The translations under genes were made by a program, and so were the position numbers. DNA of 35,151 nt, taken from Bacteroidota bacterium (lineage in GTDB: Bacteria; Bacteroidota; Bacteroidia; Palsa-948). Shown one piece after another: positions 2,185 through 26,781 of this stretch. How positions within the stretch are numbered: the stretch's first letter is position 1; every line of letters starts with the position of its first letter. Under the pieces are notes generated by a model, which saw nothing but the letters and a program-made list of their open reading frames with translations, was not told the origin of the DNA and searched no databases. The stretch covers positions 1 to 35,151 of the forward strand of contig PLUL01000013.1 of assembly GCA_003164895.1 (NCBI GenBank), given 5' to 3'.

Positions 2185-2694
2185 TTGAAAACAATTTCTA
2201 TTTTTCTTCTCACATTCTGTTTTCTTACAGCGTTTCAAGGAACTGGAAAAAAAATTCCATCTGTGCAGATTCAAACGCTGGAAGGAAAAAACGTCAATAC
2301 ATCTTCTTTTTCCAATGGCGGCAAGCCTATGCTTATTTCCTTTTGGGCAACGTGGTGCAGCCCCTGCAAAAAAGAACTCAACACAATCGCTGAAGTATAT
2401 GACGAATGGAAAAAAGAAACAGGAGTGAAGCTCATCGCTATTTCCATTGATGATTCAAAAAGTTCGAACAAAGTAGCTCCCTATGTGAATGGAAAAGGAT
2501 GGGAGTTTGAAGAATATTTGGATGTGAATTCTGATTTCAAACGTGCAATTGGCGTCAACAATCCTCCGCAAACTTTTTTGGTTGATGGCAAAGGAGAAAT
2601 TGTTTGGCAGCACGTAGGTTTTAAAGATGGCGACGAAGCACAATATATTGAAGCGTTACGAAAAGTTATCAAAGGTGAAAAGATTGAGCATTGA
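2185..2694 (+). CDS. TlpA-type thioredoxin-fold protein, exported
   Basis: This 169-residue protein begins with a short hydrophobic signal (about 1-17) followed directly by an AhpC/TSA-Redoxin-like thioredoxin domain. The active site is WATWCSPCKK with C58 and C61, and the cis-proline loop is NNPPQTFLVDGKGEIV. TlpA-like proteins act outside the cytoplasm as disulfide reductases, for example on cytochrome c or copper-site cysteines. The substrate here is unknown. I use a TTG start at 2185 because it gives a complete signal peptide and no in-frame ATG lies upstream. The gene is followed after 28 bases by a predicted outer-membrane barrel with a CX4C pair and then by an Omp28-like protein with CxxC motifs, which hints at a shared thiol-redox role (inference). 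Confidence 0.88.
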   Translation: MKTISIFLLTFCFLTAFQGTGKKIPSVQIQTLEGKNVNTSSFSNGGKPMLISFWATWCSPCKKELNTIAEVYDEWKKETGVKLIAISIDDSKSSNKVAPYVNGKGWEFEEYLDVNSDFKRAIGVNNPPQTFLVDGKGEIVWQHVGFKDGDEAQYIEALRKVIKGEKIEH

Positions 2695-2722
2695 ACTATT
2701 TTCGTATTAGCTTTATTCTTAT

Positions 2723-4384
2723 ATGAAAAAACTATTTTTAATTTTTCTATTCCTGTTTTCGTTCCGTATAATTTTTTCACAAAACATTCTTTCTTCAGGT
2801 GAAATCCATGGCAACTTTTCAATGGATGCGCAATATTATAATCCCGATTCATCCATTGGCGCTCCGCCCGTTCCCGAAAAAATGCGGATGCAGGGATATT
2901 CAAATCTCATTTACACGAACGGAAATTTTTCTGCGGGTGCCCGTTACGAAAGTTATCTCAATCCTCTGACCGGCTTTGACCCGCGATACAAAGGCAGCGG
3001 AATTCCATATCGTTTTGCATCTTATAAAGTGGATAAATTAGAAGTTACTGTTGGAAATTATTACGAACAGTTTGGCAGCGGAATGATTTTGCGTGCGTAT
3101 GAAGAAAAAGGACTTGGCATTGATAATTCGTTGGATGGCTTTCGTTTAAAATATGTTTTTCATGGAATTTATCTGAAAGGCATTGTCGGCACTCAGCGAA
3201 ATTACTGGGGAAAAGGTCCCGGTATTGTGCGCGGCATTGATACCGAAGTTCATTTGAACGAACTTCTTGCTCGGGAAAAAGATTCTACCTATCATCCATC
3301 AAAAACAGAAATTACTTTTGGCGGAAGTTTTGTCGGAAAGTATCAGGATGGCAGGCAGGTAACTTCCGGCACAAGTACATTGAACGTGCCGCAAAATGTG
3401 GGAGCAGGTTCCGGACGCATTGGCATCAGCCGTGGAAAAATAAATCTTAATGGCGAATACGTTTATAAATCGCAAGACCCATCGGCATTTAATAATTATA
3501 TTTATAAACCCGGACAAGCAGTACTCGTGAATGCTAATTATTCTGAAAAAGGTTTTGGTTTTTATTTTGGTGCAAAACGAATAGATAACATGTCGTTCAA
3601 ATCCGATAGAAATGCTACCGGAAATGATTTGAATATGAACTATATTCCATCTTTCACAAAGCAGAATACCTATTCACTTCTTGCATTTTATCCTTATGCC
3701 ACACAGCCGAACGGAGAAATAAATTATCAGTCGGAAATAGAAATGAAAATTAAAAAAGGAACTTTTTTGGGAGGAAAATACGGTACCGATCTTGCTTTTA
3801 ATGTTTCTCAGGCGTACGGATTGGATACCACGCATTTGAATCCTGCCACCGATAGTTCGCGCCTGGGGTACAAAGCAAATTACATGGGAATAGGAAAATT
3901 ATATTTCAGCGATTTTAATATTGAAGTGTCGCACAAATTCAGTCCGAAGGTTAAAGTTCTTGTGGTTTATGCCAACGAGATATACGACAAAGACGTGATC
4001 CAGAACGAGAGCGGATTTGGAACGGTATATGCCAATGTTGGATTGACCGAACTTACCTATCATTTTAAAGGAGCAAAATTTTTGAGAATGGAATTTCAGG
4101 AACTTTATACTAAGCAGGATTTTGGAAGCTGGGCAATGGTACTTGCGGAATATGGTGCAGGAGAACACTGGCTTCTCAGCGCATTCGATCAATATAATTA
4201 CGGGAATGATAATTCTGCTGCACGGATTCATTACTATACGGCAGCAGTAACTTATTTAAAAGATGCTACGCGCATTTCGCTTGGCTATGGAAAGCAGCGT
4301 TCCGGAATTTTTTGCGTAGGCGGTGTGTGCAGATATGTTCCTGCATCCAACGGAATATCACTATCGGTAACAACAACATTTTAA
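2723..4384 (+). CDS. DUF6029-like predicted outer-membrane beta-barrel protein
   Basis: This 553-residue protein has a clear signal peptide (about 1-19, ending FSQ). The rest is rich in glycine, tyrosine and alternating hydrophobic residues, and it ends in phenylalanine (SLSVTTTF), the usual terminal residue of an outer-membrane barrel. From memory it resembles the uncharacterised Bacteroidota family DUF6029; I could not run a search. The mature protein contains only two cysteines, C531 and C536, in CVGGVCRY just before the final predicted strand. The placement between a TlpA thioredoxin and an Omp28-like protein suggests these cysteines are kept reduced or oxidised by the neighbours (inference). 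It is not a TonB receptor: there is no plug domain. Function unknown. Confidence 0.8.
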   Translation: MKKLFLIFLFLFSFRIIFSQNILSSGEIHGNFSMDAQYYNPDSSIGAPPVPEKMRMQGYSNLIYTNGNFSAGARYESYLNPLTGFDPRYKGSGIPYRFASYKVDKLEVTVGNYYEQFGSGMILRAYEEKGLGIDNSLDGFRLKYVFHGIYLKGIVGTQRNYWGKGPGIVRGIDTEVHLNELLAREKDSTYHPSKTEITFGGSFVGKYQDGRQVTSGTSTLNVPQNVGAGSGRIGISRGKINLNGEYVYKSQDPSAFNNYIYKPGQAVLVNANYSEKGFGFYFGAKRIDNMSFKSDRNATGNDLNMNYIPSFTKQNTYSLLAFYPYATQPNGEINYQSEIEMKIKKGTFLGGKYGTDLAFNVSQAYGLDTTHLNPATDSSRLGYKANYMGIGKLYFSDFNIEVSHKFSPKVKVLVVYANEIYDKDVIQNESGFGTVYANVGLTELTYHFKGAKFLRMEFQELYTKQDFGSWAMVLAEYGAGEHWLLSAFDQYNYGNDNSAARIHYYTAAVTYLKDATRISLGYGKQRSGIFCVGGVCRYVPASNGISLSVTTTF

Positions 4385-4419
4385 ATCTTCGAAAAACAAA
4401 ACCATACGAAAAATACGAA

Positions 4420-4473
4420 ATGAAACACTTTATTAAATATTACTTTTTACTTTTTATTTTCTTCGTGCGATAA
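4420..4473 (+). pseudogene. Out-of-frame signal-peptide fragment of the Omp28-like lipoprotein
   Basis: An ATG at 4420 opens a 17-codon frame (MKHFIKYYFLLFIFF...) ending at TAA 4471-4473. It has the basic start and hydrophobic core of a lipoprotein signal peptide. The frame used downstream reads FSSCDKVKNPY across 4457-4489, that is, a lipobox cysteine followed by the mature protein. Removing one T from any of the T runs at 4444-4460 joins the two into a normal lipoprotein such as ...FLLFISSCDKV. I therefore read it as the true start of the gene at 4490-5356, separated by a one-base insertion or a sequencing error. Confidence 0.6.
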
Positions 4474-4489
4474 AGTAAAAAATCCTTAT

Positions 4490-5356
4490 GTGAATACTCA
4501 TAATTCTGCCGTAGGTTGTCCTAATCCGGTTTTTCCTGCTAAGGCATTTGTGCGAAAAGTTTTGGTGGAAGATTATACCGGTCATCGTTGTGTGAATTGT
4601 CCGCCTGCTGCGGTAACTTTAGAAAATATTCGCGCGGTTTATCCTACACAAGTTGTCGGAATTGCTGTTCATGCAAATTTTTGGGCAGAACCTTCGCCTT
4701 GTAATCCTCCACCGGGTGGACTTCCAAGCGATGCCTTTTATCATTATCTCGGTTGTCCGGCTGCCGAAAATTATTTTACAAGTTTTGGGTTTGCAAGCAA
4801 TCCGAATGGAATGGTAAATCGAATTCCGGTAGGCGGTTCTCCGGTTATCAGCAATGGCACTTGGAAATCAGTTGTAGATACTATTGTAACAAAACCACCA
4901 GTTGCCGATATAAATATTTTCACCAATTATAATAATTCCACTAATAAACTTTGTGTGTCCTGCAAAACAACTTTTCTGAATGCCATGCAAGGAACTTTCA
5001 ATCTTTCCATACTTTTTGTGGAAGACAGTATTTTTGACTGGCAGGCATTTGCCGGCAGCGACAGCAGCAATTATCTTTTCAGGTATGTGGTGCGCGATGA
5101 TATTAACGGTGCCGGAACAGGATTCGGACCAACCATTAAAATCAATCCTGCTTTAAACGATACGGTAGTAAGCAGTTATTCTTATTCTGTACCAACTGGA
5201 TATGCATTTACATCAGCCAGTTGCCCAGCACCGCTTGCTGTTTCGCCATGCAATCCGTCACATTGCTATGTTGTGGCTTTTATTTATGATGGAAACAGCG
5301 CCAGCGCAACATATCGCGAAATTATTCAGGCGGAAATAAAAAAGATTTATCCCTAA
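4490..5356 (+). CDS. Omp28-like protein with CxxC motifs (5' end frameshifted)
   Basis: The open frame gives 288 residues from a GTG at 4490, but the frame is open upstream to 4424 and encodes SSCDKVKNPY there, so the annotated start is an artefact of a frameshift (see the fragment at 4420). The sequence VLVEDYTGHRCVNCPPAA, with C34 and C37 in this numbering, is the signature of Omp28-related proteins, whose N-terminal domain has a thioredoxin-like fold. A second CxxC (C155, C158; LCVSCKTTF) and further cysteines follow. It would be a lipid-anchored envelope protein. Family members are described as outer-membrane proteins without a settled function. It follows the DUF6029-like barrel gene and probably shares its transcript. 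It converges with the T9SS gene at 5377, 20 bases away. Confidence 0.8.
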   Translation: MNTHNSAVGCPNPVFPAKAFVRKVLVEDYTGHRCVNCPPAAVTLENIRAVYPTQVVGIAVHANFWAEPSPCNPPPGGLPSDAFYHYLGCPAAENYFTSFGFASNPNGMVNRIPVGGSPVISNGTWKSVVDTIVTKPPVADINIFTNYNNSTNKLCVSCKTTFLNAMQGTFNLSILFVEDSIFDWQAFAGSDSSNYLFRYVVRDDINGAGTGFGPTIKINPALNDTVVSSYSYSVPTGYAFTSASCPAPLAVSPCNPSHCYVVAFIYDGNSASATYREIIQAEIKKIYP

Positions 5357-5376: not shown

Positions 5377-6084
5377 TTATTGAACAACAATTAATTTTCC
5401 TGCGCTTACCTGTTGATTATCCGACACAAGTTTGTAGAAATAAATTCCTTGAGAAGTATTTAATGAAATGAGATTATTTCCATTATTCAAATTCGAATAT
5501 TTTGACACAATATTTCCAATAATATCATAAACCGACAAAGAAAAAGAAGTTGTGGAATTTTGTTTGCTGGAGATATTTATAGAGAAAACACTTCCTGAGG
5601 TAATTGGGTTTGGAGAAATTTTAACGCTAACATTTTGCGCATCCAATTCATTTACGCCGGTAATACTGTTGACACAAAAATGCTTATAAATTGTTTTTGT
5701 TGGAGGAGTAAGATTTCTAAATGCCATTAATACCGTGCCGCTTCCGGGAATTGAAGAAGTTATAAAGTGCATTATAAAGCCATCATGCTGATGTGGCTGA
5801 AAAGTAAAATGCACGCTGTCTGTAGTAGGCAAGTAGCAAGTACCATTCATGCAGAATTCAGTTTTCCAACCCGGAGTAGTTACATTTTGAACACGAACGA
5901 CTTCAATAGACAACGAAATGGTTGTATCATTCATTATGGAATCCAATTTATAAACTTCTACATCCGTCGATGTATCACCGACATCACAAGTATCGGGCAT
6001 CACAATAGTAAATGCTTGTGAAAAAGATTTTTCACTTGAAAAAAGAAAAAACGAAAAAATAATTAGAGTATAAATTTTTTTCAT
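5377..6084 (-). CDS. Small T9SS cargo protein with a CxxGxC motif
   Basis: This 235-residue protein has a signal peptide (about 1-23, ending SFSQ) and a type A T9SS sorting domain at about 155-235 (VKISPNPITSGSVFSI ... VYDIIGNIVSKY ... GIYFYKLVSDNQQ ... GKLIVV). It should cross the outer membrane by type IX secretion and be released or anchored at the surface. The middle domain (about 24-135) is beta-rich with cysteines C33, C78, C83 and C137. C78 and C83 form FCMNGTCY. I recall similar Cys-containing Ig-like domains in Bacteroidota envelope proteins, some alongside Omp28 domains, but this is unchecked. It lies at the end of the minus-strand run from rsmG, 79 bases after the TlpA-like gene. 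Confidence 0.85.
   Translation of the reverse strand: MKKIYTLIIFSFFLFSSEKSFSQAFTIVMPDTCDVGDTSTDVEVYKLDSIMNDTTISLSIEVVRVQNVTTPGWKTEFCMNGTCYLPTTDSVHFTFQPHQHDGFIMHFITSSIPGSGTVLMAFRNLTPPTKTIYKHFCVNSITGVNELDAQNVSVKISPNPITSGSVFSINISSKQNSTTSFSLSVYDIIGNIVSKYSNLNNGNNLISLNTSQGIYFYKLVSDNQQVSAGKLIVVQ
5830..5843. repeat. Two copies of the CAAGTAG heptamer inside a coding region
   Basis: CAAGTAG at 5830-5836 is followed directly by CAAGTAC at 5837-5843. On the coding (minus) strand the pair encodes the TCYL of the CxxGxC motif in the T9SS protein. The same heptamer occurs three times at 7370-7390 in the same reading frame, and as diverged copies in rnr at 30256-30290. Confidence 0.5.
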
Positions 6085-6163: not shown

Positions 6164-7426
6164 TCAGGATTCTTTCAGCAGTGATTCAACAAAAGAATTA
6201 ATTTCCTTCACCGATTTATCGTATTCAATTCCGGTAGCAGGACCAGAATAACCGGTACGGATTTTCCGAACGTTTCCTTTTTTATCTATGAAGATGGTGG
6301 TGGGAAACGACATCACATGGTTGAGCATGGGCAATGCTTTGTCTGCATCTTTTGGCTGAAATCCGGTGATAAGAAAATCATAATCCGCATTAAATTTATT
6401 TTTCAGTCGCGATAAATTATTTTTAGCTTTTTCAAAATCATCCGTCTTTTCAAATGCAAGAGCCGCTACTTCCAATCCCTGAGATTTATATTTTTTATGG
6501 AACTCGGAAAGAAACTTAGTTTCGTCCATGCAGTTTGGACACCACGATCCCATTATCTGAAGGATCACCACTTTGTTTTTGTATTTCTCATCGGAGAAAG
6601 AAACCTTTTTATTCTCAATGCTCGGAAAAGAAAAATCAACTTTTGAAAATCCTTTTTTCAGAAACGTGAGTGAATCCGGGTTTCGTAATTTGAAAGTAGA
6701 ATCTTTCCATGCAATCCATGTTTCGTGGTGATGAATGCCGGAATAAAATTCTCCCCAGATGGTGCTGTCGGGCATTATTTCAGCATGAAAAATAAAGGCG
6801 TGTGAACCATCGAAGCAGGAAAGAAGCATGTATTTTCCGAACAAACAACCTTCCAGATAGCGGTAATCTCCAGTTTCAGTTAAAAAAGTTCCGGTTGCGC
6901 TGTGAGCATATTGTTTGAATACTCCGATAGCATAGGAACTGTCGGGTTGGTTGGGACTGAATACACATCGCCATTTCCCGCCAAAAGGAAAATTATCTTT
7001 TTCTTCGTATTCAGGACAATCAAAACGATTTGCTTCGCCATAAATTCCGGTGAAAGGAATAATATTTTTTTCTTTTCGCGCATGATTTATCCAGTTTCCG
7101 TTCATCAATGAATCTCCTGAAAGTTTGCATCTGAATTCGGAATCAAACACAGGCATTTTGATAAAAACAGAATCACCTTTAATAGAAACTTCATTTACAA
7201 GAATTTTTTCTTCCGCATTATGAATCGTGATTTTTGTTGAATCATTTTGAAATGAGAGATCAAAATTGAAAGGAAGAATCAATCCGGTGGAATCTACAAT
7301 CGTAAGAATACCTCTCCATTTTCCTTCTTTGAGGGGAGATGGTTTTTTAGGGTGAGAACAAGAAAAAAAGTAGCAAGTAGCAAGTAGCAAAGCAGTAAGA
7401 ATACGCGATTTGCAATTCGTTTTCAT
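6164..7426 (-). CDS. TlpA-like thioredoxin lipoprotein with an N-terminal beta domain
   Basis: This 420-residue protein starts with a lipoprotein signal (about 1-23) ending FFSCSHP. The first two thirds (about 30-250) is a beta-rich domain I do not recognise. The C-terminal thioredoxin domain (about 265-415) has the active site GSWCPNCMDE with C296 and C299 and the cis-proline segment SFPTTIFIDKKGNVRKIRTGYSG. It is probably a membrane-anchored thiol-disulfide reductase facing the periplasm. It begins 15 bases after the rseP stop, so it is very likely in the same transcript as rsmG-dxr-rseP. Part of its signal peptide (LLATCY) is encoded by three perfect copies of a 7-base repeat. Confidence 0.87.
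   Translation of the reverse strand: MKTNCKSRILTALLLATCYFFSCSHPKKPSPLKEGKWRGILTIVDSTGLILPFNFDLSFQNDSTKITIHNAEEKILVNEVSIKGDSVFIKMPVFDSEFRCKLSGDSLMNGNWINHARKEKNIIPFTGIYGEANRFDCPEYEEKDNFPFGGKWRCVFSPNQPDSSYAIGVFKQYAHSATGTFLTETGDYRYLEGCLFGKYMLLSCFDGSHAFIFHAEIMPDSTIWGEFYSGIHHHETWIAWKDSTFKLRNPDSLTFLKKGFSKVDFSFPSIENKKVSFSDEKYKNKVVILQIMGSWCPNCMDETKFLSEFHKKYKSQGLEVAALAFEKTDDFEKAKNNLSRLKNKFNADYDFLITGFQPKDADKALPMLNHVMSFPTTIFIDKKGNVRKIRTGYSGPATGIEYDKSVKEINSFVESLLKES
7370..7390. repeat. Three perfect tandem copies of the GTAGCAA heptamer
   Basis: GTAGCAA is repeated at 7370-7376, 7377-7383 and 7384-7390. It lies inside the signal-peptide codons of the TlpA-like lipoprotein and on that strand reads TTGCTACTTGCTACTTGCTAC in part, giving L-L-A-T-C-Y. 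Since 7 is not a multiple of 3, gain or loss of one unit would shift the frame. The unit is the same as that at 5830-5843. Confidence 0.75.
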
Positions 7427-24261: not shown

Positions 24262-26781
24262 ATGAAAAAACTTTTCCTCCCTTTTGCCTTTTTAATTTTC
24301 ACTTTTTACTTATCGGCACAGCCGACCGTTTGGAATCCCCGCGGAATTGGTGGAGGTGGTGCGCTATTTTCTCCCAGCATTAATCCGGGCAACAGCAGCG
24401 AGTATTACATTGCATGCGATATGAGCGAACTATTTCATACTACAGATTATGGACTCACGTATTCGCAATTGAGCTATTCAAAATTTGTCGGTGGACATAA
24501 TTCCAAAATGTGTTACACTTCCACCGCAAATCTTTTGTACAGCATCAGTTATCCCGACCCTGCGCAGGTTGGGCTTCCGGTAAAAAGCACCGACAATGGC
24601 GCAACGTGGACCCCGCTTGCAGGAAATCCTGACCCCACCTCGGATGTATGGACGATCGATGTTGATTACTCCAATCCAACACGTGTCATTATTTCCGGAT
24701 ACAGTAATATTTATTTCTCCAGCAATGGAGGAACAACTTTTACTTCCATTCACACGGCAGTAAGTTCGGGTTCAGGGAATATTGTAGGCGGAGTTTTTTT
24801 CGATGGAAATAATATTTACATTGGCACAAACGACGGTGTGTTAATTTCTACCAACGGAGGAGCAAACTGGAATACTGCAACCATTACAGGAATTCCGGCA
24901 GCCGAGGCAATTTTTTCTTTTGCAGGCGCAAAAGTTGGAAACACCACCCGATTTTTTTGCACCACAGGAACTGCTGCAAATATGTATGTTGGTTTACAGG
25001 GAAGCGATTACAGTGGTTTTCTCGCAGGCGTTTATTCATGCGATTATGGAACCACACAATGGATTTCCAAGATGAGCGGCATCACATTGGGAACAGATTA
25101 CCTGATGTTCGTGGCGATGGCGCAGAACGATATCAACACCGCGTATCTCGCAGGCAGCAGTAATTCGTATCCTGATATTATGAAAACTATAAATGCAGGA
25201 ACAAACTGGACGCATGTGTTCAACACAACAAATAATCAAAATATTATTACAGGTTGGAGCGGATATCAGGGAGATAAAGACTGGAGTTGGGGCGAATGTC
25301 CGTTTGGAATTTCTGTCAGCGCAACAAATTCCAACTATATGATTTTTGGTGATTTCGGATTCTGTCACAAAACTTCTGATGGAGGAACTACTTGGACGCA
25401 GGCGTATGTGAACACGAACAATCAGCATCCTACAAATGCGCCCACGCCACAAAAACAAAATTACAATAGCATCGGAATGGAAAATACTTCCTGCTGGCAA
25501 GTACTTTGGGCAAACGCAAACACAATGTGGGCAAGCTATTCTGACATTGGAGGAATCCGTTCTACGGATGTGGGAAATTCCTGGTCATTTAATTACACAG
25601 GGAACTCGGTGAATTCAACGTACAGAGTTGTACAAGGAAGCAATGGAACTTTATACGCCGGAACTTCCGGCATTCACGACATGTATCAAAGCACCCGGTT
25701 GAAAGATGCGCAATTAGATGCTGCCGATGCAAGCGGAAAAATTTCTTATTCAACAGATAATGGATTAACATGGAATTTACTTCACTCATTTGGTCATCCG
25801 GTTTTTTGGGTGGCGCTCGATCCGAATAATGCAACACGCGCTTATGCAAGCGTAATTAATTATGCCGGATCGGGTTCTGCCGGTGGAGTTTACATTTGCA
25901 ACAATCTGAATAATCTTGCAGCTTCTACTTGGACTTTATTGTCGGCTCCTCCGAGAACACAAGGACATCCTGCAAGTTTGGTTGTGCTAAACGATGGAAA
26001 ATTAGTTGCAACTTTTTCCGGAAGAATAAATCCTTCGGGAGCTTTCACTGCAAGTTCAGGATGTTTTATTTATGATCCGGTTGCAAGTTCTTGGACAGAT
26101 GTTTCCGCTTCAGGAATGGATTACTGGACAAAAGATATTGTAATTGATCCGAACGATGCAACACAAAATACTTGGTACTCTGGAGTTTTCAGCGGATGGG
26201 GCGGAGCTCCAAACGGTTTGGGCGGATTATATAAAACAACTAATCGCGGTACTTCGTGGACAAATCTTACCGGCACAACTATAGACCGAGTTACTTCCTG
26301 CACGTTCAATCCAAGCAATGCGAATGAAATTTTTCTCACTACCGAAACACAAGGAATGTGGATGAGTAGCAATATTAATTCTGCAACGCCAACTTTTTCA
26401 AATGTGCCAAGCTATCCGTTCCGTCAGCCGGAACGGATTTATTTTAATCCGAACAATACAAACGAGATGTGGGTTTCCAGTTTCGGAAATGGAATGAAGA
26501 TGGGATTACTTAATGCAAATGGTGTTGCTGAATTTTCTCAGGAAGAATTTTCGCTTTATCCAAATCCGACATCCGGATTAGCAAATGTGTCAATTAGCCA
26601 ATCAGCCGATTTGAAAATAAAAAATATTGAACTCTATAATATATATGGAGAAAAATTATCGTCTATGAATTTTCAAATTGGCTCAACTTCAAATTTTCAA
26701 ATTGATTTGAGTTCCCAGCCAAACGGAATTTATTTTTTGAAAATCGGAAATACTGCTAAGAAAATAATAGTGAATAGGTAA
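24262..26781 (+). CDS. Large T9SS cargo protein with Asp-box beta-propeller repeats
   Basis: This 839-residue protein has a signal peptide (about 1-20, ending LSAQ) and a T9SS type A sorting domain (about 760-839, FSLYPNPTSGLANVSI ... ELYNIYGEKLSS ... NGIYFLKIGNTAKKIIV). The body holds at least eight Asp-box (BNR) motifs of the form STDxGxTW, such as KSTDNGATW, KTSDGGTTW, RSTDVGNSW, YSTDNGLTW and KTTNRGTSW. These mark two tandem seven-bladed propellers as in GH74 xyloglucanases or Vps10/sortilin folds. The GH74 catalytic aspartates cannot be confirmed by eye, so enzyme or binding protein remain possible. It is predicted to be surface-exposed or released. It converges with frr with one base between stop codons. 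Confidence 0.88.
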   Translation: MKKLFLPFAFLIFTFYLSAQPTVWNPRGIGGGGALFSPSINPGNSSEYYIACDMSELFHTTDYGLTYSQLSYSKFVGGHNSKMCYTSTANLLYSISYPDPAQVGLPVKSTDNGATWTPLAGNPDPTSDVWTIDVDYSNPTRVIISGYSNIYFSSNGGTTFTSIHTAVSSGSGNIVGGVFFDGNNIYIGTNDGVLISTNGGANWNTATITGIPAAEAIFSFAGAKVGNTTRFFCTTGTAANMYVGLQGSDYSGFLAGVYSCDYGTTQWISKMSGITLGTDYLMFVAMAQNDINTAYLAGSSNSYPDIMKTINAGTNWTHVFNTTNNQNIITGWSGYQGDKDWSWGECPFGISVSATNSNYMIFGDFGFCHKTSDGGTTWTQAYVNTNNQHPTNAPTPQKQNYNSIGMENTSCWQVLWANANTMWASYSDIGGIRSTDVGNSWSFNYTGNSVNSTYRVVQGSNGTLYAGTSGIHDMYQSTRLKDAQLDAADASGKISYSTDNGLTWNLLHSFGHPVFWVALDPNNATRAYASVINYAGSGSAGGVYICNNLNNLAASTWTLLSAPPRTQGHPASLVVLNDGKLVATFSGRINPSGAFTASSGCFIYDPVASSWTDVSASGMDYWTKDIVIDPNDATQNTWYSGVFSGWGGAPNGLGGLYKTTNRGTSWTNLTGTTIDRVTSCTFNPSNANEIFLTTETQGMWMSSNINSATPTFSNVPSYPFRQPERIYFNPNNTNEMWVSSFGNGMKMGLLNANGVAEFSQEEFSLYPNPTSGLANVSISQSADLKIKNIELYNIYGEKLSSMNFQIGSTSNFQIDLSSQPNGIYFLKIGNTAKKIIVNR

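Follow-up and report, generated by a model that had tools for sequence, protein, structure and literature searches.

A conserved three-gene set of Bacteroidota and its possible role in a cell-surface thiol-disulfide module

The stretch of DNA analysed here (the window) comprises 35,151 nucleotides from a Bacteroidota bacterium (Bacteroidia, Palsa-948; contig PLUL01000013.1 of assembly GCA_003164895.1). Between positions 2185 and 5356 it carries three consecutive plus-strand genes, all for exported proteins: a thioredoxin of the TlpA type, a full-length DUF6029 barrel and a protein of the Omp28 family. The cysteines listed in a first-pass annotation of this DNA were all present, namely C58/C61 in TlpA, C531/C536 in the barrel, and C34/C37 together with C155/C158 in Omp28. 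The present work indicates that genes for three exported families, with one invariant cysteine pair each, lie next to one another across the Bacteroidota, and this gene set suggests an undescribed route by which reducing power may reach the cell surface.

The first gene (2185..2694, plus strand, TTG start) encodes a TlpA/ResA-type periplasmic thioredoxin. It matched the AhpC-TSA profile PF00578 (76.4 bits, E = 2.4e-21) and belongs, with its WCSPC site and its signal peptide, to the AhpC-TSA/Redoxin-type thioredoxins. The signal peptide, as read from the sequence, has no lipobox, and the nearest solved chain was 2m72_A (E = 1.8e-47). Scores were below the curated NCBIfam cut-offs for ResA, DsbE and TlpA (best NF002854, 85.1 bits against a cut-off of 170); judged by its sequence, the protein is related to ResA and DsbE but is classed as neither. 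The CxxC pair C58/C61 was kept in all 96 operon copies spanning the site. A DsbD homologue is encoded in the genome to which the window belongs.

The second gene (2723..4384, plus strand) matched PF19494 over its full length (599.8 bits against a cut-off of 27, E = 6.4e-180, residues 1-553 on profile positions 1-538), which confirms the family that had been proposed for it, DUF6029. C531 and C536 were found in 148 of 148 barrel homologues from several classes, including members that DUF6029 detects only at about E 1e-7. Seven positions were fully invariant in these 148 barrels (G111, G120, G528, C531, G534, C536 and G544), the last five of which fall in a C-terminal hairpin with the pattern C-x-[GNS]-G-[VI]-C; in the window this hairpin reads C531-VGGV-C536 (4313..4330, plus strand). 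The AlphaFold2 model, built with 17 sequences for the barrel alone without a partner, gave an outer-membrane beta-barrel of about 24 strands with both termini periplasmic (predicted local distance difference test, pLDDT, 82; predicted template-modelling score, pTM, 0.75), in which the C-terminal strands span residues 516-525, 528-532, 535-539 and 542-552. Because the C terminus is periplasmic in the model and the CX4C hairpin joins the last two strands, that hairpin is predicted to lie on the outer face, at the cell surface. With the hairpin so placed, TlpA could therefore not simply pass electrons to the barrel cysteines in the periplasm. The best structural match of the model was the usher pore FimD (Z 18.4, 378 residues, 4.2 A), whose barrel ends align with those of the model, and the 24-strand usher pore PapC was also close. 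The likeness is nevertheless one of fold, at about 11% identity: the protein ends at its last strand, lacks the plug, the N- and C-terminal periplasmic domains and the chaperone-binding domains of the ushers, and no pilus genes were noticed at the loci. Elsewhere, one DUF6029 copy (G307:C32:1641-3272) contains two in-frame TAA stops and is probably decayed.

The third gene was called as an open reading frame from a GTG at 4490 to 5356, within a body frame that spans 4424..5356 (plus strand). It matched PF11551 (37.8 bits against a cut-off of 34.9), in line with membership of the Omp28 family, and fell short of the curated Omp28 lipoprotein subfamily NF033782 (103.5 bits against a cut-off of 150). 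The called frame lacks a signal peptide; one does begin (MKHFIKYYFLLF...) in another frame, at the ATG of position 4420, the out-of-register part (4420..4473, plus strand) reading MKHFIKYYFLLFIFFVR up to a stop at 4473, while the lipobox LFSSC-DKVKN, with its Cys at 4466-4468, shares the reading frame of the protein body. In the window, a one-base shift therefore separates the signal peptide from the body; it falls near T-rich runs (4420-4490) and may be due to misassembly, to decay of the start or of the gene, or to a variable T-run. A homologue of the same genus (L005) has the N-terminus MKHFLKYYLIPYT...LSACDKVENPY, and the lipobox-position Cys was aligned in 99 of 99 operon Omp28 homologues. 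The CxxC pair C34/C37 (4589-4600, plus strand) was likewise present in 99 of 99. Position 155, by contrast, is a Cys in only 14 of them, and the C155/C158 pair appears to be a peculiarity of the window's copy. The expected conservation of the cysteine pairs thus held for TlpA, the barrel and C34/C37, but not for C155/C158. The mature N terminus of these lipoproteins was also strongly kept, as C-D-K-[IV]-[ED]-x-P-Y (D in 85/99, P in 85/99), and is perhaps a surface-export or docking signal.

The Omp28 model (pLDDT 92) combines a thioredoxin domain, in which a helix begins at the CxxC, with a beta-sandwich. Its top solved match was HBP35 of Porphyromonas gingivalis (5y1a; Z 23.4, 228 residues, 2.8 A), a surface thioredoxin exported by the type IX secretion system (T9SS) which has the same two parts, so that the window's protein has an HBP35-type fold. 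The next matches were the DUF1223 protein 2axo and, after it, 2r2c, the C-domain of Omp28 from P. gingivalis. A search of the PDB by sequence gave 2axo alone (E 0.095), and the likeness to HBP35 emerged only from the fold search. The two proteins differ in their anchor: HBP35 is T9SS cargo, whereas the window's Omp28 is apparently of the lipoprotein type, with no C-terminal T9SS sorting domain found by sequence reading and Pfam. HBP35 is reported to depend on a C-terminal sorting domain to reach the cell surface and to reduce insulin in a CxxC-dependent manner with dithiothreitol as donor; the accessible part of that account describes no barrel or TlpA partner (PMC2907840). A second Omp28-type protein (L204, on C19; 392 residues, WCGYC) is encoded in the same genome away from the three genes, and its C-terminal end resembles a T9SS sorting domain. 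Paraprevotella 00502, annotated as Omp28-related and required for trypsin degradation at the surface, was set aside, as its published model shows WD40 and Ig-like parts and a shared name is too little to link it with these genes (PMC9477747).

The first-pass annotation had made its proposal depend on the adjacency extending beyond this genome, and it does. The barrel was searched for in 40 relatives, in species genomes, in 198 genomes across the phylum and in 296 Bacteroidia genomes. It was found in 29 of the 40 relatives, in 56 of the 198 and in 208 of the 296, while a peptide pattern far from the cysteines retrieved at least 588 further relatives from the species genomes. In 64 of the 80 species-genome loci fetched, the barrel gene stands on the same strand between TlpA, immediately upstream, and Omp28, immediately downstream. 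TlpA adjoined the barrel in 128 of 149 loci (123 on the same strand). The Omp28 lipoprotein was recognised in 113 of these 149, a T9SS-tailed Omp28 in 43 and both in 27; another CxxC thioredoxin-fold partner occurred in 5, and any such partner in 134. The window itself was counted among the 15 partnerless loci because the lipobox rule requires a signal peptide in frame. Since both the adjacency and the cysteine pairs are conserved across the phylum, the grouping is more than chance, and the earlier proposal of a thiol-disulfide module reaching the outer membrane is borne out by this adjacency and by one invariant pair per family. A porin-like outer-membrane protein of about 220 residues recurs near the module in 21 of 121 barrel loci.

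The partner is anchored in different ways. An Omp28 domain was encoded upstream of the barrel in 27 of 80 species-genome loci, mostly directly before TlpA; the upstream proteins inspected were read as exported, with a CxxC and a T9SS-type C-terminal end, and are of the same protein type as HBP35. In several other lineages, the barrel-side partner bears a T9SS tail in place of the lipobox. One variant (L176-L180) consists of TlpA, DUF6029 and then, in place of Omp28, two other CxxC thioredoxin-fold proteins, one a lipoprotein and one T9SS-tailed; a TonB receptor or a TolB-like lipoprotein stands next to the module in several of these loci. Because the anchor switches between lipoprotein and T9SS tail among lineages, the sequences suggest that the partner acts outside the cell. 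Of the redox relay from TlpA to lipoprotein and barrel that had been proposed earlier, the simple periplasmic handover to the barrel is thus not retained, the hairpin being predicted extracellular, and the lipoprotein becomes an HBP35-type surface thioredoxin that is often T9SS cargo.

Further links to the T9SS were observed around the barrel. The module reaches past 5356, to a small T9SS-sorted protein on the minus strand (5377..6084, PF18962 tail) with the CX4C hairpin FCMNGTCY. Its family, small T9SS-tailed proteins with a CX3-4C hairpin, recurs at 40 of 149 barrel loci and has only 2 copies in the whole genome of the window; the filter that defined it required the cysteine motif, so that motif conservation within the family is not independent. 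This protein is a candidate surface client. Of the 81 class-sample genomes with coordinates listed for DUF6029 and sprA alike, 43 had the two no more than 12.1 kb apart, where about 0.9 would be expected at random positions, a count to which inherited gene order contributes and for which coordinates were transcribed by hand. DUF6029 was present in 207 of 289 SprA-positive and 1 of 7 SprA-negative Bacteroidia genomes (Fisher P 0.003), and all 56 DUF6029 genomes of the phylum sample were SprA-positive, many of the SprA-negative genomes there being from one family. In the window's genome, DUF6029 and sprA are on different contigs. A strict dependence of the module on the T9SS was rejected on account of G037, the barrel-bearing Bacteroidia genome in which SprA was not detected. 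The position of DsbD beside sprA, seen in the window's genome and in 0 of 19 others checked, was put down to chance.

Taken together, the data lead us to favour a cell-surface thiol-disulfide module of the Bacteroidota that is fed from the periplasm and has these three genes at its core, a reading to which we give slightly less than an even chance. We do so because TlpA adjoins the barrel phylum-wide (128/149) and the cysteines are invariant, because the barrel model shows a large lumen with the hairpin outside, because the Omp28 model is nearest to HBP35, a surface-bound and CxxC-dependent insulin reductase (PMC2907840), and because DUF6029 lies near sprA and is commoner with SprA, a DsbD homologue being encoded in the window's genome. 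In such a module, a DsbD-type electron supply would reduce periplasmic TlpA, and the wide DUF6029 barrel would serve as passage and docking site, TlpA and barrel together keeping the outer-face thioredoxin-fold protein (Omp28, HBP35-like) reduced. The surface CX4C hairpin would be the last relay step, or else a redox switch or a dock for the surface thioredoxin, which would in turn reduce or reshuffle disulfides, be it those of external substrates or those of exported proteins such as the neighbouring small T9SS CX3-4C proteins. The direction of electron flow, the protein contacts and the membrane crossing are what we infer here. The narrower claim that TlpA passes electrons via the 24-strand barrel, with the surface disulfide as an active relay step, to surface thioredoxins acting on T9SS-exported proteins and external disulfides is rather doubtful; relay step, switch and plain structural element are all conceivable roles for the hairpin.

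Several points indeed weigh against a surface module of this kind. The cysteine pair, which spans a two-glycine turn, could have no more than a structural role, and two barrels (L046 and L070) keep the CX4C, yet TlpA and Omp28 were not recognised in the fetched flanking DNA. The SprA-negative genome G037 (L024) has retained TlpA, a CSGGVC-bearing barrel and an Omp28 that begins like a lipoprotein. The pLDDT of the barrel model is 82, and shared ancestry inflates all locus counts. To our knowledge, no interaction, redox potential or mutant has been reported for the module proteins. The invariant barrel cysteines and the gene adjacency would also suit a dedicated maturation, in which TlpA and Omp28 isomerise or reduce the barrel disulfide at assembly and the barrel's own task is transport of a substrate, in parallel with LptD, a large barrel whose disulfides require Dsb proteins. 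A single CX4C pair over a two-glycine turn should, however, form without a dedicated enzyme pair, and a partner that is often T9SS cargo on the outer face would be poorly sited for a periplasmic assembly factor; we consider this explanation unlikely.

The sprA linkage and the recurrent T9SS CX3-4C hairpin proteins beside the module are also in line with outward oxidation or isomerisation, the module making or proofreading disulfides of surface T9SS cargo and TlpA only resetting the isomerase. WCxPC TlpA-type proteins with DsbD partners are, as a rule, reductases, and such a role seems quite unlikely. In favour of oxidation or isomerisation, complementation of an E. coli dsbA mutant by a plasmid carrying hbp35 is cited in PMC2907840; against it, HBP35 acts as a reductase in vitro (PMC2907840). 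The protein is also reported to bind hemin and to sustain growth when hemin is scarce (PMC2907840), and TonB receptors stand next to the module in some loci, as would fit heme or metal acquisition in which surface thioredoxin-like proteins capture hemin or metal, the barrel imports it and TlpA reduces the ligand or the cysteines. Clustering of the neighbours at barrel loci, however, revealed no recurrent transporter family except the porin-like one (21 loci), and, the cysteine pairs apart, no cluster of conserved ligands for heme or metal was evident. A metal site made of several such pairs was rejected, as the second Omp28 pair is not conserved (Cys155 14/99). Beyond the published hemin binding, the metal-handling system that the first-pass annotation had offered as an option received no direct support, and we regard acquisition as improbable. 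Hardly any weight is given to the view that the barrel is a porin exporting polysaccharide or solutes and that its thiol neighbours are incidental, although DUF6029 appears in one paper as a possible polysaccharide barrel, with an HHpred likeness to it reported for myxobacterial Wzi-like barrels (PMC9603273): thiol proteins recur at the loci, whereas the neighbour clustering gave no recurrent polysaccharide gene family.

The surface thiol module that we favour was also compared with known systems. In P. gingivalis, the neighbours of PG2173 are presumably PG_2174 and PG_2175 (PDB 2m72), which we take to be a DUF6029 protein and a TlpA. PG2173 is the Omp28 lipoprotein of this species (PMC9722745); it shares PF11551 with the window's protein, and 2r2c matches residues 109-288 (Z 9.7, 24% identity), but it has been described only as an antigen or putative adhesin. 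PG_2174 was reported as an uncharacterised protein found in vesicles (PMC4335976). The DsbD/CcdA-driven TlpA, ResA and CcmG pathways have in common with the module the TlpA fold, the WCxPC site, the periplasmic location and, in the window's genome, DsbD; they end, however, in the periplasm or at the inner membrane, while the module's partners are at the outer membrane and the surface. MtrB of MtrCAB, which was among the structural hits of the barrel model, is a large barrel serving electron transfer across the outer membrane, but MtrCAB is a heme wire where the module would use thiols, and no cytochrome was noticed in the module. For Muribaculaceae, a 2026 preprint describes surface thioredoxins of the HBP35 kind, without this module (PMC13404670). 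A literature search lacking most subscription journals turned up neither an account that treats the module as a system nor a paper on Omp28 together with a selenoprotein. The novelty would lie in the system rather than in its known parts, and depends on the functional link that we infer.

HBP35 shows that working thioredoxins exist on the outer surface of Bacteroidota, where neither NADPH nor the electron carriers of the inner membrane can reach them. We know of no explanation of how such surface thioredoxins stay reduced, and the module makes their upkeep directly testable. If the reading is true, it would provide roles for two families without one, DUF6029 and Omp28.

Other genes of the window were noted. 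The ECF (extracytoplasmic function) sigma factor gene upstream (1488-2099) was rejected as a conserved part of the module, as it is absent from the recurrent neighbour clusters. Two genes away from the module on the minus strand, positions 6164-7426 encode another exported thiol protein, a lipoprotein whose C-terminal domain is TlpA-like (GSWCPNC). Further along, at 24262-26781, lies a gene for a T9SS-tailed protein of 839 residues with propeller repeats of the Sortilin/BNR type.

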